From a virus, in the IMG/VR virus record IMGVR_UViG_3300021437_000042, positions 1-40,850 of that record: 40,850 nucleotides of DNA; one strand, 5' to 3'. The notes under the pieces are model-generated. The model was given only the letters and a program-made list of their open reading frames with translations, did no database searches and was not told the origin of the DNA. This document shows, in pieces, positions 19,510-27,818 of the stretch. Position 1 is the first letter of the stretch; each line of letters starts with the position of its first letter. Both the position numbers and the translations under genes were made by a program.

Positions 19510-19742
19510 TTGAGTCCATCCCTAGCGCGTATAGCTTTTTCCATGCTGTAATACCGATTGAGATGCATTAAACCTGCACATTCTTCTCGTTCTTGCTTCG
19601 TTCCTGCTTCAAAACCGGCGGCATAAGCGAGATCGGCAAATTTGCAAAACTGTTCTGGTAATGAGTGATCCATAAGACCGAACGGCGGAAATTCTGCGCA
19701 TATTAGCCACCAGTCAATCTGTTCGCGTGTAGGATGGATCAC
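19506..19742 (-). CDS. Hypothetical protein, paralogue of the 16793 gene
   Basis: A 78-aa protein with a GTG start overlapping the annealing-protein stop (GTGA). It shows PTREQIDWWLICAE and FADLAYAAGFEAGTKQERE, matching in order the 16793-17068 protein. The two probably arose by duplication within the operon. Function unknown. Confidence 0.6.
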   Translation of the reverse strand: MIHPTREQIDWWLICAEFPPFGLMDHSLPEQFCKFADLAYAAGFEAGTKQEREECAGLMHLNRYYSMEKAIRARDGLK

Positions 19743-20527
19743 GCTGCCTCTTGCTGTGGTGCTGGCGCATCCGCTGCCTTCGCCAGTTCCACCAATCGAG
19801 CATAGTTGGCCGTCTCCCTCGCGACCCGGCGGAACGTCTGCACGTCCTGCGCCTGCCACCACTTCTTGAGCGCTTCAAAGCCATCTGCCGCGGCATTCCA
19901 AGCTTCCACGATGAGCGGACGAGTCCAAGGGGGCTCGAGTGTCCACACGAGATCATCGTCGGTCAAGCAGGTTTCATATTCAACCGGCTGTTGCGGCTGA
20001 TCCTGCACGATGGTCAATGCATCGGCAGGCACAATTTCGGCCTTGCCCATGTCTTTGATTTCTTCTGGAACGTACATCCCAGAAGTAGCGCTGGGGCATA
20101 CGGATCTGACACCTTCGCTGATCACACGAGAGCGCAGCATGGCCCTTGGATACTTCGGCCACAGGCTGTCTTTCTTCGAGACGAGCCCGATGCTTTCCGC
20201 CTGGGCATATGTCCATTTGATTGTAACTGTGCCGCCTTGCTGATGCGTGAATGTGGCCGATGCTTCCTTTTCATCGAGCTTATTCCATTTGACGGCGCCG
20301 CCAGCCTTGATGAAATCGCGTAGCATAGCCTCCGACTTCTTGGAAGGCTTGCCCAAAATAACGTCATAGTCACGCATTGCCGCTGCCGGATGCATGCCTT
20401 CGGCTTGTGCCATCAACATGAGCACGAGCACTTGCTGTGTGGATTTCTGCCCAAACATCCCGGACTTCGATACCTGTTCGGCAATGGCTTGCAGATCGTT
20501 GAATGGGACTACTTCTGAACCGGCCAT
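19739..20527 (-). CDS. Single-strand annealing recombinase (RecT/Redbeta-like)
   Basis: A 262-aa protein preceded by AAGGAGAAGCAGAG. Residues 10-75 (LMLMAQAEGMHPAAAMRDYD) resemble the N-terminal core of phage RecT/Bet annealing proteins. The diagnostic stretch is at 127-159: PRAMLRSRVISEGVRSVCPS followed by GMYVPEEIKD, similar to the 'R.MLRaRAiSegvR.v.P....G.YTpEE' signature of the family. Residues about 160-262 are a variable tail. The role is annealing ssDNA produced by the neighbouring exonuclease, making circular or concatemeric genomes after infection. The exact subfamily cannot be fixed by eye. Confidence 0.75.
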   Translation of the reverse strand: MAGSEVVPFNDLQAIAEQVSKSGMFGQKSTQQVLVLMLMAQAEGMHPAAAMRDYDVILGKPSKKSEAMLRDFIKAGGAVKWNKLDEKEASATFTHQQGGTVTIKWTYAQAESIGLVSKKDSLWPKYPRAMLRSRVISEGVRSVCPSATSGMYVPEEIKDMGKAEIVPADALTIVQDQPQQPVEYETCLTDDDLVWTLEPPWTRPLIVEAWNAAADGFEALKKWWQAQDVQTFRRVARETANYARLVELAKAADAPAPQQEAA

Positions 20528-22353: not shown

Positions 22354-22468
22354 CGCGTTTGAGGCTTATATGAAGCGCATCGGGGTGAAGGCCGACTCCA
22401 TCATGGGCGGCGTGTTCTGGAAGCTGTGGCAGGCGGCGTGCGCGTGGCAGAGGGGGAATCATGGGTGA
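22325..22468 (+). CDS. Hypothetical 47-aa protein
   Basis: It reads MRLRPNPERSAFEAYMKRIG and ends VFWKLWQAACAWQRGNHG. The pattern 'F.A...R.G......FW..WQA..AWQRG' occurs in many small phage proteins of unknown function. It overlaps the genes on both sides by a few bases. Confidence 0.55.
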   Translation: MRLRPNPERSAFEAYMKRIGVKADSIMGGVFWKLWQAACAWQRGNHG

Positions 22469-22946
22469 GGGAAACAGACATACAAAGAACAGGCGGCGGG
22501 GCCCGGAACATCATCTTTGGAAGCACGGCGGTAAAAACGGTTTCCCGCGGGAATATGAGATCTGGCTGCAAATGAGATATCGATGTTACAAGCCACAAAA
22601 CAAGGATTACCACAGGTACGGGGGGCGCGGAATAACGGTTTGCGATAGATGGAGATTTGACTTCGGAGCGTTTCTTGCTGATATGGGTGCTCGCCCAACG
22701 CGGAAACACTCGATAGATCGAATCGACAACGACGGCAATTATGAGCCATCTAATTGCCGATGGGCCACTCCGCAGCAACAGGCGGACAACACACCTAAGA
22801 AGGGGAGGTTTTTGACGTTGGCAGAGGAAACGTTAAATCAGACTGAGTGGGCACGAAAGTTAGGAATTTCCCGTAGTGCGTTGCGCAGGCGCTTGGAATT
22901 GTGGCCTGTCGAGAAAGCGCTAACGACGCCCAATTGCCATGAGTAG
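22461..22946 (+). CDS. Free-standing HNH homing-type endonuclease
   Basis: A 161-aa protein with AGGGGG before the ATG. Residues 35-110 carry the phage HNH layout: IWLQMRYRCYKPQNKDYHRY, GGRGITVCDRW, then HSIDRIDNDGNYEPSNCRWA with H83, D86, N90-D91 and N98 forming the nuclease site. Residues 118-148 look like a DNA-binding helix-turn-helix (TEWARKLGISRSALRRRLEL). Such genes sit between phage genes and spread by cutting related genomes. The surrounding genes are intact, so I see no intron here. DNA composition is more A-rich than its neighbours, in keeping with recent arrival. Confidence 0.85.
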   Translation: MGEGNRHTKNRRRGPEHHLWKHGGKNGFPREYEIWLQMRYRCYKPQNKDYHRYGGRGITVCDRWRFDFGAFLADMGARPTRKHSIDRIDNDGNYEPSNCRWATPQQQADNTPKKGRFLTLAEETLNQTEWARKLGISRSALRRRLELWPVEKALTTPNCHE

Positions 22947-23439
22947 CACCTTTCGCTCTGTCCGTGAATCGCGTCTTGCCGCCAAGAAGGCTTTGGATTT
23001 TTACGCCGACCTTTCCGGGCGCCCCCGGCAGAATATCCAGATTCCTGAGAAGCGGGTCCGGACGAAGAGCCCGGGCCCTTCGGAGCACCAAATTCAAACT
23101 GCGGTAATTTCGTGGTGGAAGCACGCTTGTGGGTGGCATCAACTCCCAGAATTTTGTTTGCTGGCTATCCCGAACGGCTCGTACCGCGATGCCATTACAG
23201 GCGCCCGGCTGAAGTCAGAAGGCGTCCGTAGAGGTGTTCCAGACCTTTTCCTGGCCGTTCCAGTGGCGCACTATGCCGGGTTCTGGCTGGAGCTTAAGAA
23301 ACCCGGCGGCAGCGCATCGGATGAGCAGCTCGCGGTCCTCGACTATCTCGAGCGGCACTACCGCACGGCCATCTGCGACTCGTTCCAGGGGGCGATCGAT
23401 GCCATTTCTCAATATCTGGGGGTGCCGAAACGTGGATGA
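22939..23439 (+). CDS. VRR-NUC domain nuclease
   Basis: A 166-aa protein. Residues 48-155 match the VRR-NUC fold of the PD-(D/E)xK superfamily: PSEHQIQTAVISWW, LLAIPNGSYRD, RLKSEGVRRGVPDLFL (D102), then GFWLELKKPGG (E118 and K120) and SDEQLAVLDYLE. Members are structure-specific nucleases; phage versions are thought to process branched DNA or act before packaging. The start overlaps the HNH stop by 8 bases. Confidence 0.85.
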   Translation: MSSTFRSVRESRLAAKKALDFYADLSGRPRQNIQIPEKRVRTKSPGPSEHQIQTAVISWWKHACGWHQLPEFCLLAIPNGSYRDAITGARLKSEGVRRGVPDLFLAVPVAHYAGFWLELKKPGGSASDEQLAVLDYLERHYRTAICDSFQGAIDAISQYLGVPKRG

Positions 23440-23653
23440 GAAACGGCGCCTCCATGGCCGGCATTGCCAGTGTGCAGCCTGCGGAGCCTACTTTTCGGTC
23501 CTGCGTAACTTTGAAAAGCACCGCATTGGGGACTTCGGCAAGGATCGCCGCTGCGCAACTGCGGCAGAGATGCGGGAAAGCGGACTTCAGCTTGTGGACG
23601 GGTGGTGGAGAGGCGCCCCGCGCGGAGGGCTCCTACGCACAAAGCGAGGCTGA
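23432..23653 (+). CDS. Small C2H2-like zinc finger protein
   Basis: A 73-aa protein from a GTG overlapping the VRR-NUC stop by 8 bases. It contains HCQCAACGAYFSVLRNFEKH followed by RIGDFGKDRRCATAAEM: C-x2-C, then a helix with H and a final C, a single zinc finger seen in many phage early proteins. It may bind DNA or a host protein. Function unknown. Confidence 0.6.
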   Translation: MDEKRRLHGRHCQCAACGAYFSVLRNFEKHRIGDFGKDRRCATAAEMRESGLQLVDGWWRGAPRGGLLRTKRG

Positions 23654-23655
23654 GA

Positions 23656-23832
23656 ATGACTGACGCCGACCTTGAAGCCGCCATCCAGGCCGAATGGTCC
23701 CTCTTCTGGCGCCTGTGCGATGAGAACGACAAGGAAGCTGCAAAACAGACCTTCGAGCAGCTGCGCAAACTCATCCAGCAGCGCAGCCCGGAGCAGATTG
23801 AGGCGCTGGAGCGGAGGCAGGGGTTGAGATGA
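23656..23832 (+). CDS. Hypothetical helical protein
   Basis: A 58-aa protein from the ATG at 23656, just after the preceding stop. It is entirely helical and acidic (DLEAAIQAEWSLFWRLCDEN, then EAAKQTFEQLRKLIQQRS). It ends in ATGA overlap with the next gene. Function unknown. Confidence 0.55.
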   Translation: MTDADLEAAIQAEWSLFWRLCDENDKEAAKQTFEQLRKLIQQRSPEQIEALERRQGLR

Positions 23833-24182
23833 AAGTTCTGGTGTGCGGCGGGCGACGCTTCGGCAAAACAGAGCCGGAGATGGCTTTGATGGAAAATGTT
23901 TTGTATCTTGCCCATAGCCAGTTTCACATTGATTTGCTCATTCAGGGAGGGGCGCCAGGTGCGGACAAATATGCAATATTGTGGGCACTGCGGCATGGTG
24001 TGAAAGCATTGACATTCCCCGCAGATTGGAGTCGCGGCAAAAAAGCCGGGCCGCTGCGCAATCAAGAAATGATCAATGAAAGGCCTGACCTCGTGATTGC
24101 GTTCCCTGGTGGGCGCGGCACCGCCGATTTGCTCTCACGCGCCAAGGCTTGCGGCGTCAAGCGCATCTGGGAATATCCGTAA
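23829..24182 (+). CDS. SLOG/DUF2493 (YspA-like) nucleotide-binding protein
   Basis: A 117-aa Rossmann-like protein. Residues 1-10 (MKVLVCGGRR) are the first strand and loop; LLIQGGAPGADKYAI (38-50), AGPLRNQEMI (73-82) and AFPGGRGTADLL (91-102) are the typical SLOG/LOG-family nucleotide or ligand-binding motifs. Members sense or process nucleotide-derived signals; in phages the substrate is unknown. It starts in ATGA with the preceding gene and is the last gene before the gap in front of the replication ATPase. Confidence 0.8.
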   Translation: MKVLVCGGRRFGKTEPEMALMENVLYLAHSQFHIDLLIQGGAPGADKYAILWALRHGVKALTFPADWSRGKKAGPLRNQEMINERPDLVIAFPGGRGTADLLSRAKACGVKRIWEYP

Positions 24183-24328: not shown

Positions 24329-25366
24329 ATGCCCGAATCAGAGGCAGAGCGACGCGCCGCTTCTCAGCGCATGATCGCAATGGCCGATGCAGCATTAGCC
24401 TCTGCCGATCGCATCATCAAATCAGGCAAGCCCGACGAGCGGCTGTGGCTGACAGGGTCTGAGTTATTCACAGCCACACACCCACCAGCAACATATCTCG
24501 TCGAAAATCTCATCCCGCAGGGCAGCATTCTCTTTGCGGGGCGCCCCAAAGCGGGCAAATCATGGTTTGCATTGGGCTTGGCCATCGCCGTAGTCACTGG
24601 CGATCATTTCATGGGCCGCGAAGTCAATCGTGGCGAAGTTCTCTACTTAGCCTTGGAAGACAACGAGCGAAGGCTGTCTAAGCGACTGCAGCAATTAGCC
24701 GGCGATCATAGAGCAGAAGAACTGACCGGCTTTACGGCAAGCCTCAACTGGTCAAAAGGCATCCTCGCAGCCTCCGAAATCGATGCCTGGTGCTACAAGC
24801 ATCCGAATGCGCGCCTAGTCATCGTCGATACCCTCAAAATGATCAAGGAGCAGGCCGATCCAAAGAAGAACGGTTACGACGTTGACTACGATTCGCTCGC
24901 AGCTCTGACCGGCGTCGCCAATCACCGGAAAATCACCATCCTGATCGTCCACCACACCCGCAAAGCAGAGTCCGACGATCCTTTCGATACCGTCAGCGGC
25001 ACACTTGGACTCAATGCCGCTGTAGACACAATCTTTGTCTTGCAGCGCAGCAAAGAGCCCCGTGTCGCTACTTTGCACGGGCGCGGACGCGAACTCGAGG
25101 AAGACGTAGAACGCTCCATATCGCTCCATCCGAACGGATTATGGCGCGATGTCGGAACGGCAGAGGCTGGTTCCTTAAGATCGGAACGAATGGCTGTTTT
25201 GGAGGAATTACGCGACTCCGAAACCGGTTTGCGCACATTCGAACTGGCTAAGCGGCTTGGCAAGAGAAGCTTGCCCTCGCTACGTAAGATACTGAATAGT
25301 ATGCAAAAAGACAGGCATCTCATCAAGAAAGGCCATTACTGGTGCTTGCCGCCTGTCTCTCTCTAA
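24329..25366 (+). CDS. RepA/DnaB-like RecA-fold ATPase, putative replicative helicase
   Basis: A 345-aa protein from the ATG with GGAG upstream. Walker A is GRPKAGKS (71-78), Walker B is ARLVIVDTLK with D167, and a VHHTRK motif follows (207-212), as in AAA_25/RepA hexameric ATPases. The acidic LEDN at 109-112 also fits. Residues 285-340 form a winged-helix-like tail (RTFELAKRLGKRSLPSLRK) that could bind DNA. With the iteron-like array directly after the gene, the likely job is origin recognition or helicase loading for phage replication by the host polymerase. A primase or polymerase gene is not visible. Confidence 0.8.
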   Translation: MPESEAERRAASQRMIAMADAALASADRIIKSGKPDERLWLTGSELFTATHPPATYLVENLIPQGSILFAGRPKAGKSWFALGLAIAVVTGDHFMGREVNRGEVLYLALEDNERRLSKRLQQLAGDHRAEELTGFTASLNWSKGILAASEIDAWCYKHPNARLVIVDTLKMIKEQADPKKNGYDVDYDSLAALTGVANHRKITILIVHHTRKAESDDPFDTVSGTLGLNAAVDTIFVLQRSKEPRVATLHGRGRELEEDVERSISLHPNGLWRDVGTAEAGSLRSERMAVLEELRDSETGLRTFELAKRLGKRSLPSLRKILNSMQKDRHLIKKGHYWCLPPVSL

Positions 25367-25371
25367 TTCTC

Positions 25372-25529
25372 TCTCTATATGGAACTATAGAGACTTATAG
25401 AGTTATAGGAACCTATGGAACCATTGGAACCAATACCCATACAGAATGATCAAGATATGGTTCCATAGGGTTCCTTTTACAGACACCCCATTTTCATAGA
25501 CAAAGGTTCCAAAGATTCCTATGGTTCCT
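25372..25529. repeat. Iteron-like 9-bp repeat array with inverted blocks, candidate replication origin
   Basis: From 25381 the sequence repeats every nine bases: GGAACTATA, GAGACTTAT, AGAGTTATA, GGAACCTAT, GGAACCATT, GGAACCAAT. On the other side the inverse core GGTTCC occurs at 25459, 25469, 25505 and 25523, with GATTCC at 25514, again about nine bases apart. Bases 25408-25424 and 25457-25474 form a near-perfect inverted repeat. The region is AT-rich and follows the ATPase gene, as iteron origins often do. Origin function is inferred. Confidence 0.65.
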
Positions 25530-25691
25530 ATGCGCGCGAAGCCAAGACTTAGATTTCTCCCCAAACTCAGGATATGGCATTGCAGCACAAAGGGCGCCTA
25601 TGGCGTCGATCGAACGCCGGCCACGGCCTACGCGAAGTGGTACATCGCACGATTCCGCCTGTTGCAGCCCTTGACACCGCCCACGAAGTGA
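25530..25691 (+). CDS. Small protein after the repeat array
   Basis: A 53-aa frame (ATG at 25530; another in-frame ATG at 25521) reading MRAKPRLRFLPKLRIWHCST, then KGAYGVDRTPATAYAKWYIA. Small phage proteins with 'P.L..LP.LR.W.C......G.G.TP..AY..W' are common and uncharacterised. No ribosome site is obvious. After its TGA the frame continues AYTHTCGGCGKPSRR to a second TGA, so the present stop might be a recent change. Confidence 0.5.
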   Translation: MRAKPRLRFLPKLRIWHCSTKGAYGVDRTPATAYAKWYIARFRLLQPLTPPTK

Positions 25692-25700
25692 GCGTATACC
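25671..25700 (+). promoter_or_regulatory. Candidate rightward promoter for packaging/structural genes
   Basis: TTGACA (25671-25676), 18 bases, TATACC (25695-25700). It overlaps the end of the small gene and precedes the terminase region. The start would be near 25707, directly at the base of a strong hairpin. Confidence 0.45.
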
Positions 25701-25705
25701 CACAC

Positions 25706-25735
25706 CTGCGGGGGCTGTGGGAAGCCCTCCCGCAG
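25706..25735 (+). promoter_or_regulatory. GC-rich hairpin at predicted transcript 5' end
   Basis: CTGCGGG (25706-25712) pairs with CCCGCAG (25729-25735), extended by GGCT/AGCC across a two-base bulge, with a six-base loop. No T-run follows, so it is not a standard terminator. Bases 25736-25837 hold no other recognisable feature. Confidence 0.5.
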
Positions 25736-25837
25736 ATGAGAGGATCGAACGCACCTCCTTTTCAGCGCCCTGTGCAGCCTCCAACACTGCCAGGGCGTTT
25801 TCTCAACCAGATCAGCACAACTCTGACCTTTCAAAAA

Positions 25838-26011
25838 ATGAGCCGCCCACGGGGCACGGGACGCCTTTCCATCGAAGCACAAGCCCGCGCGCTGCGTCTG
25901 AGGGCTATCCGCAACCGACTCACCGATCGCGCCATAGCGGCCCGTCTGCAAGTCTCTGTGGGCACGTTGCGCGGCATCTTCAAACGCTACGGGGGCAACG
26001 CCAATGCCTGA
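25838..26011 (+). CDS. Small helix-turn-helix protein
   Basis: A 57-aa protein reading MSRPRGTGRLSIEAQARALR, then a helix-turn-helix RLTDRAIAARLQVSVGTLRG with a basic end. The fold resembles the DNA-binding part of resolvases and small phage regulators. It precedes the terminase cluster and could control it. Start chosen at the ATG before the conserved part; a longer frame upstream looks non-coding. Confidence 0.6.
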   Translation: MSRPRGTGRLSIEAQARALRLRAIRNRLTDRAIAARLQVSVGTLRGIFKRYGGNANA

Positions 26012-27475: not shown

Positions 27476-27818
27476 GCCGGTGATGGGCCGTCCGCGCGTC
27501 TACGATCGGGACGCGATCGGGCTTGCATTCGAGCAATACATCGAGCAAACCGAGATCCCGATCCTTGCCGAGTTTGCGACCAAGCATAAGCTGCACAAGC
27601 AGTTCATGTATGACTGTCCGGAGTTTGCCGATCTGGTGAAACGGTGCCTGTCGAAGAAAGAATCGGCGCTGGAGCGCATGGCTCTGGCCGGCAATGTGAA
27701 CTGCGCAATGGCAATCTTCAGCCTGAAGCAGATGGGCTGGTCGGATCGGCAGGACTTGACGCACAAGGGCGACCAGTCGGCGCCGCTGGTGTTCTCCAGC
27801 ATCGATCAGAAGCTGTAG
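27453..27818 (+). CDS. terS: Terminase small subunit
   Basis: A 121-aa protein from the ATG at 27453 (overlap of 23 bases with the previous gene; ATG at 27483 is an alternative). The N-terminal part GRPRVYDRDAIGLAFEQYIE and AEFATKHKLHKQFMYD looks like the DNA-binding helices of small terminases that use a 'GRP.ky' entry. KKESALERMALAGNVNCAMA and IFSLKQMGWSDRQD match the family's central region and its 'lk.mgW.D' ending. The ring-shaped protein recognises the packaging start site and recruits TerL, whose gene begins six bases after this stop. Confidence 0.8.
   Translation: MPTLAPAKPVMGRPRVYDRDAIGLAFEQYIEQTEIPILAEFATKHKLHKQFMYDCPEFADLVKRCLSKKESALERMALAGNVNCAMAIFSLKQMGWSDRQDLTHKGDQSAPLVFSSIDQKL

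Follow-up and report, generated by a model that had tools for sequence, protein, structure and literature searches.

Two facing arms of 9-bp-phased repeats at the 3′ end of a RepA-type helicase gene as a candidate replication origin in a P22-type podophage

Introduction

Does an AT-rich cluster of short repeats that directly follows a RepA-like ATPase gene serve as the replication origin of the phage that carries it, and what about such a cluster is conserved in other genomes? The window analysed here is the entire IMG/VR record IMGVR_UViG_3300021437_000042 (40,850 bases), which encodes a P22-type portal, TerL and scaffold. An original prediction, made from the letters of this record, had interpreted the cluster as a candidate iteron origin, with the winged-helix tail of the ATPase as a possible binder.

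Classical iteron origins of plasmids consist of direct repeats bound by an initiator and located beside an AT-rich region. Their iterons are ~20 bp long and are recognised by an initiator without helicase function, whereas the array studied here is built of 9-bp units in two facing arms. In plasmid RSF1010, ~20-bp iterons are bound by a separate protein, RepC.

Results

A phased, two-armed array behind the ATPase gene

Between the stop codon of the ATPase and the start of the array lie 14 bp; unit positions were read directly from the sequence (Table 1). All six units of arm A start at a step of exactly 9 bp, with three degenerate units (GGAACT at 25381, GAGACT at 25390 and AGAGTT at 25399) followed by three perfect GGAACC units at 25408, 25417 and 25426. 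On the other strand, the two units of arm B have a step of 10 bp and those of arm C (GGTTCC at 25505, GATTCC at 25514 and GGTTCC at 25523) a step of 9 bp. These positions bear out the initial description of six plus-strand units, the last three of them perfect, facing five units of GGTTCC type.

Table 1. Coordinates of the ATPase gene and of the parts of the array in the window
Feature	Position	Strand	Basis
345-aa ATPase of the RepA type (AAA_25); putative hexameric helicase and proposed initiator	24329..25366	+	Pfam, PDB profile, AlphaFold
C-terminal winged-helix domain, residues 278-339, proposed iteron-binding	25160..25345	+	models and profile/fold matches
Arm A, six 9-bp-phased units	25381..25431	+	sequence
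27-bp AT-rich spacer between arms, candidate melting site	25432..25458	.	sequence, G+C scan and inference
Arm B, two inverted GGTTCC units (25459, 25469)	25459..25474	-	sequence
30-bp spacer, arm B to arm C	25475..25504	.	sequence
Arm C, three inverted 9-bp-phased units	25505..25528	-	sequence

The window contains 21 copies of GGAACC/GGTTCC, with 7 exact copies inside the array. Its densest 160 bp hold 7 copies, compared to 1–3 in 300 first-order simulations, and chance thus does not explain the array. The AT-rich setting that had been claimed for it was also confirmed, since positions 25372–25531 have the lowest G+C content among the 4069 160-bp windows tested (37.5%, compared to 55.7% for the window as a whole). 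The minimum of the detrended GC skew lies away from the array, at 27619, in a record that is not closed and has no end repeat.

Facing inverted arms could also act at the level of the transcript, as a long hairpin serving as a terminator or processing site. The region, treated as RNA, indeed folds better than shuffled sequences (z = -3.1), but any facing inverted arrays necessarily fold in this way, and a search of the array revealed no terminator-like site. Moreover, the arms keep their 9-bp phase while varying in copy number and spacing, whereas a stem needs no phase. An RNA element is accordingly very improbable.

Predicted structure of the ATPase and its neighbours

The gene directly before the array was predicted to encode a RepA-like ATPase, and its product indeed matched Pfam AAA_25 (E = 6e-30). 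A profile built from 25 relatives matched RepA of RSF1010 best among solved structures (1g8y, E = 2e-15), and the ATPase thus has a RepA-like hexameric helicase core. In the AlphaFold model (mean pLDDT 88), the core resembles that of RepA (1nlf/1g8y) with a TM score (target) of ~0.7. The C-terminal tail is modelled with good confidence (pLDDT ~74–95) in helix-helix-helix-wing order, so that the predicted structure agrees with the winged helix originally proposed. Its profile and fold matches are to winged-helix regulators and Z-alpha domains, the fold matches being weak. To our knowledge, RepA of RSF1010 carries no winged-helix tail.

Immediately after the array, an open reading frame (25574–26011) encodes a C-terminal HTH_23 domain; an in-frame ATG at 25838 would yield a 57-aa HTH protein, another possible binder of the array. 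The TerL gene starts ~2.1 kb downstream of the array. Upstream of the ATPase gene, the region 22461–24182 contains HNH endonuclease, VRR-NUC nuclease and SLOG-family genes, and a RecT-like gene is located on the opposite strand (19739–20527).

For finding close relatives of the ATPase, a single-protein query did not succeed and an eight-sequence alignment was too divergent; a three-sequence alignment worked. The nearest relatives in viral contigs are only ~40% identical, and the array could thus not be traced through close ATPase orthologues.

GGAACC arrays in other genomes

A query for one arm (GGAACCN3GGAACCN3GGAACC) matched 119 contigs. As candidate arrays, these were mostly rejected as coding repeats (Gly-Thr-X or Glu-Pro-X), with ~16 of the 119 being facing and non-coding, and a two-arm pattern was therefore used instead (GGAACCN3GGAACC, 20–81 bp, GGTTCC, 3–12 bp, GGTTCC). 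This pattern retrieved 26 and 39 stretches in viral contigs, and a similar one gave 23 matches in genome contigs, several of which were coding repeats. Outside these loci the motif is scarce: in four host genomes GGAACCN3GGAACC occurs only 1–6 times, nearly always at array loci. In the open-licence literature, we found no paper that joins a GGAACC iteron with a phage.

The genes beside the two-arm GGAACC arrays form several groups unrelated to one another, with arrays at the 3′ ends of genes of the DUF7146/Toprim_3, VapE, DUF927 and AAA_25 families. At 22 viral loci encoding DUF7146/Toprim_3 primases (~975 aa), the array falls within the last 160 bp of the gene; in L029, L063, L150–L172 and others, the tail of the protein is encoded by the iterons themselves. 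Behind VapE genes the array lies ~100–140 bp past the gene in most cases and ~500 bp past it in L022. Arrays beside AAA_25 genes, which the original prediction had proposed to look for, were found in L130 and in L127, L135 and L141, the last three with a Toprim domain. In a Lamprobacter contig (L184/G004:C29:66191-68097), two GGAACC arrays of opposite orientation lie 1.8 kb apart near a DUF927 gene.

The spacers of GGAACC arrays are TA-rich or alternate purine and pyrimidine. Those of L029, L155, L163 and L171 are often of the alternating kind (GCGCGC, ACACGCGC) rather than AT-rich, an observation that we set beside the Z-alpha-like profile of the ATPase tail.

Further GGAACC arrays are adjacent to terS, in a group extending from L126 to L174 (Terminase_2), in L149, L163 and L165, and in a sphingomonad group where a primase is encoded 3–5 kb upstream. 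In L126, L133, L134, L140, L148, L153, L164 and L174, the two-arm array precedes a Terminase_2-like terS by 97–158 bp and no recognised primase was found nearby; these arrays may be origins or packaging sites.

The same geometry with different hexamers

As an intended negative control, we searched for the same geometry with a scrambled hexamer, GGCAAC. The expectation that it would retrieve nothing was wrong: the two-arm search returned 40 viral contigs, and in 31 of these a VapE, DUF927 or AAA_25 gene ends within ~220 bp of the array. Given that these matches were again helicase-linked arrays, we concluded that it is the geometry, and not a motif, that is conserved. A separate search with GGCAAC at a 14-bp step returned two contigs.

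Consistently, AAA_25 relatives in phage and plasmid records have facing arrays at 9-bp steps just past the stop codon, with different hexamers (CGTCAC, CAATGA, CATACC, GTCGGA and others). An exact two-arm test at the AAA_25 3′ end was passed by 15 of 40 non-redundant loci, as opposed to 0 of 442 other windows from the same loci. The spacing between units peaks at 9 bp (26 gaps), followed by 10 and 18 bp. When phasing was required, 20 of 41 AAA_25 loci, including the one studied here, had two facing 9-bp-phased arms within 250 bp of the helicase 3′ end; none occurred in 347 control windows, and 820 shuffles gave a single one. This phased test is conservative, because several of the loci that fail it show degenerate or coding-end arrays by eye. 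What is conserved is thus the geometry and not the hexamer.

Among DUF927/VapE genes sampled from genomes, 10 of 22 had an array, with varied hexamers, against 1 of 125 windows. AAA_25 genes of bacterial genomes passed the strict test less often, with 4 of 17 and 1 of 17 in two classes; of the intended RadA/DnaB-like controls, which are weaker AAA_25 matches and not a clean set, 0 of 10 and 2 of 10 passed in the two classes. The array rule is therefore strong for RepA-type helicases of phages and plasmids but does not extend to every AAA_25 gene. The helicase gene of some families contains the array within its own 3′ coding end. The Caldicellulosiruptor bescii plasmid pATHE01 (L121:15-2171) has an AAA ATPase gene whose 3′ coding part encodes (Ser-Ile-His)x6, a 9-bp repeat array that is possibly the plasmid's own origin.

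These comparisons bear on two further explanations. Phased sites can serve regulators, and the array might be an operator for the HTH_23 protein (25574–26011, perhaps from 25838), which is predicted from the next gene and is also missing from relatives, or for the ATPase itself. We give this little credence, given that the constant neighbour across loci is the upstream helicase, that in some families an operator would have to lie within the helicase coding end, and that only one promoter-like match was found in 2 kb, the same as in shuffled sequences. Short phased repeats are known from centromere-like sites as well, which would suit a site for partition or incompatibility if the phage were a plasmid-like prophage. 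Against this, a scan of neighbouring genes (part of the window's genes) showed no partition ATPase, and the arrays track helicases, making a partition site very unlikely indeed.

Relatives with a different replication module

We next compared 30 IMG/VR contigs whose portal is 58–74% identical to that of the window. Most of them have retained TerL or the small genes found in the window between the array and TerL, and the small genes beside TerL are kept in ~20 of the 30. None of the 30 contains the ATPase, and none contains a cluster of at least three GGAACC/GGTTCC. About 12 of the loci extend well beyond the place where the ATPase and array would be expected and have other genes there, which in L221 are, in our reading, a primase-like and a helicase-like gene. 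The HTH protein encoded downstream of the array is absent from the portal relatives too.

This exchange of the replication module, in which ATPase and array are missing together, speaks for a link of the array to the replication module rather than for a packaging site. If the array were a pac site, the small terminase subunit would bind the repeats and packaging would start there, as its position between the replication genes and the terminase genes would allow, and as would fit the GGAACC families in which it precedes terS by 97–183 bp. However, no such array occurs in relatives whose TerL is of the same family and which keep the conserved small genes beside it, although these may have a packaging site of another sequence. 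Nor was a terminase found near the arrays of the DUF7146 family or of L127, L135 and L141, and with an unrelated hexamer the geometry still tracks helicase 3′ ends (31 of 40 contigs). We thus regard a pac site as improbable.

Discussion

Judged from sequence evidence, the array is likely to be the replication origin of the phage, forming a unit with the preceding helicase gene. Comparison supported this part of the original prediction, through the relatives with an exchanged module, the 20 of 41 ATPase loci and the modelled tail. What did not hold is the place given to the repeat itself, as relatives use other hexamers in the 9-bp geometry, which itself also occurs outside this phage. Counting against the origin interpretation, in some families (L126–L174; L149/L163/L165) the array is found beside terS, without a recognised helicase.

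The closest known kind of origin is that of PICIs and SaPIs. In PICIs, two sets of iterons flank an AT-rich region 3′ of rep, and a rep-ori segment of a Gram-negative PICI replicates a plasmid (PMC6092414). In SaPI Rep, the C-terminal domain binds iterons that directly follow the rep gene, and that of the SCCmec helicase Cch2 likewise binds short direct repeats downstream of the gene encoding it (PMC7581432), although Cch2 is a D5-type helicase with only three 5-nt iterons. The array described here shares with PICI/SaPI origins its location immediately 3′ of an initiator-helicase gene (14 bp past the stop), the two sides, arm A and arms B/C, around AT-rich DNA, a helicase with a C-terminal DNA-binding domain (here a predicted winged helix as putative binder) and an iteron sequence that varies between elements. 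It differs in that the PICI/SaPI initiators are Pri-Rep, DUF927 or D5/Primase_Cterm helicases, whereas the ATPase has the AAA_25, RepA/RecA fold, and in that it is found in a phage that encodes portal, terminase and scaffold rather than in a satellite without structural genes of its own. Because helicase family and type of carrier both differ, the array would work like a PICI origin without being a member of that class. One paper calls the organization unique to PICIs; here a P22-type podophage carries it next to a helicase with the RecA fold.

From the position of each array, we infer that the helicase is its reader. The winged-helix tail of each ATPase subunit would read one hexamer, so that a ring or spiral of subunits would assemble on each arm. 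The two rings, in opposite orientation, would face each other across the AT-rich spacer (25432–25458), melt it and then move apart as a pair of self-loaded helicases; self-loading has been proposed for SaPI Rep. Since reader and sites are adjacent, they would be inherited and altered jointly, and this would account for a hexamer that varies within a constant geometry.

On balance, we favour a more general view, in which one origin architecture of phages, prophages and plasmids (two facing 9-bp-phased arms at the end of a helicase gene) may serve at least four helicase/primase families (RepA-type AAA_25, VapE, DUF927 and DUF7146/Toprim). The hexamer would change with the DNA-binding tail of the helicase, and origin and initiator would form a transferable cassette whose specificity could be read from sequence.

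The occurrence of this organization in full phages and beside other helicase folds suggests that it either arose by convergence or represents an old module open to exchange. A simple sequence test would provide candidate origins in phage genomes that lack annotation, and the origin recognition of self-loading helicases, like the change of specificity under a constant geometry, becomes a testable question.
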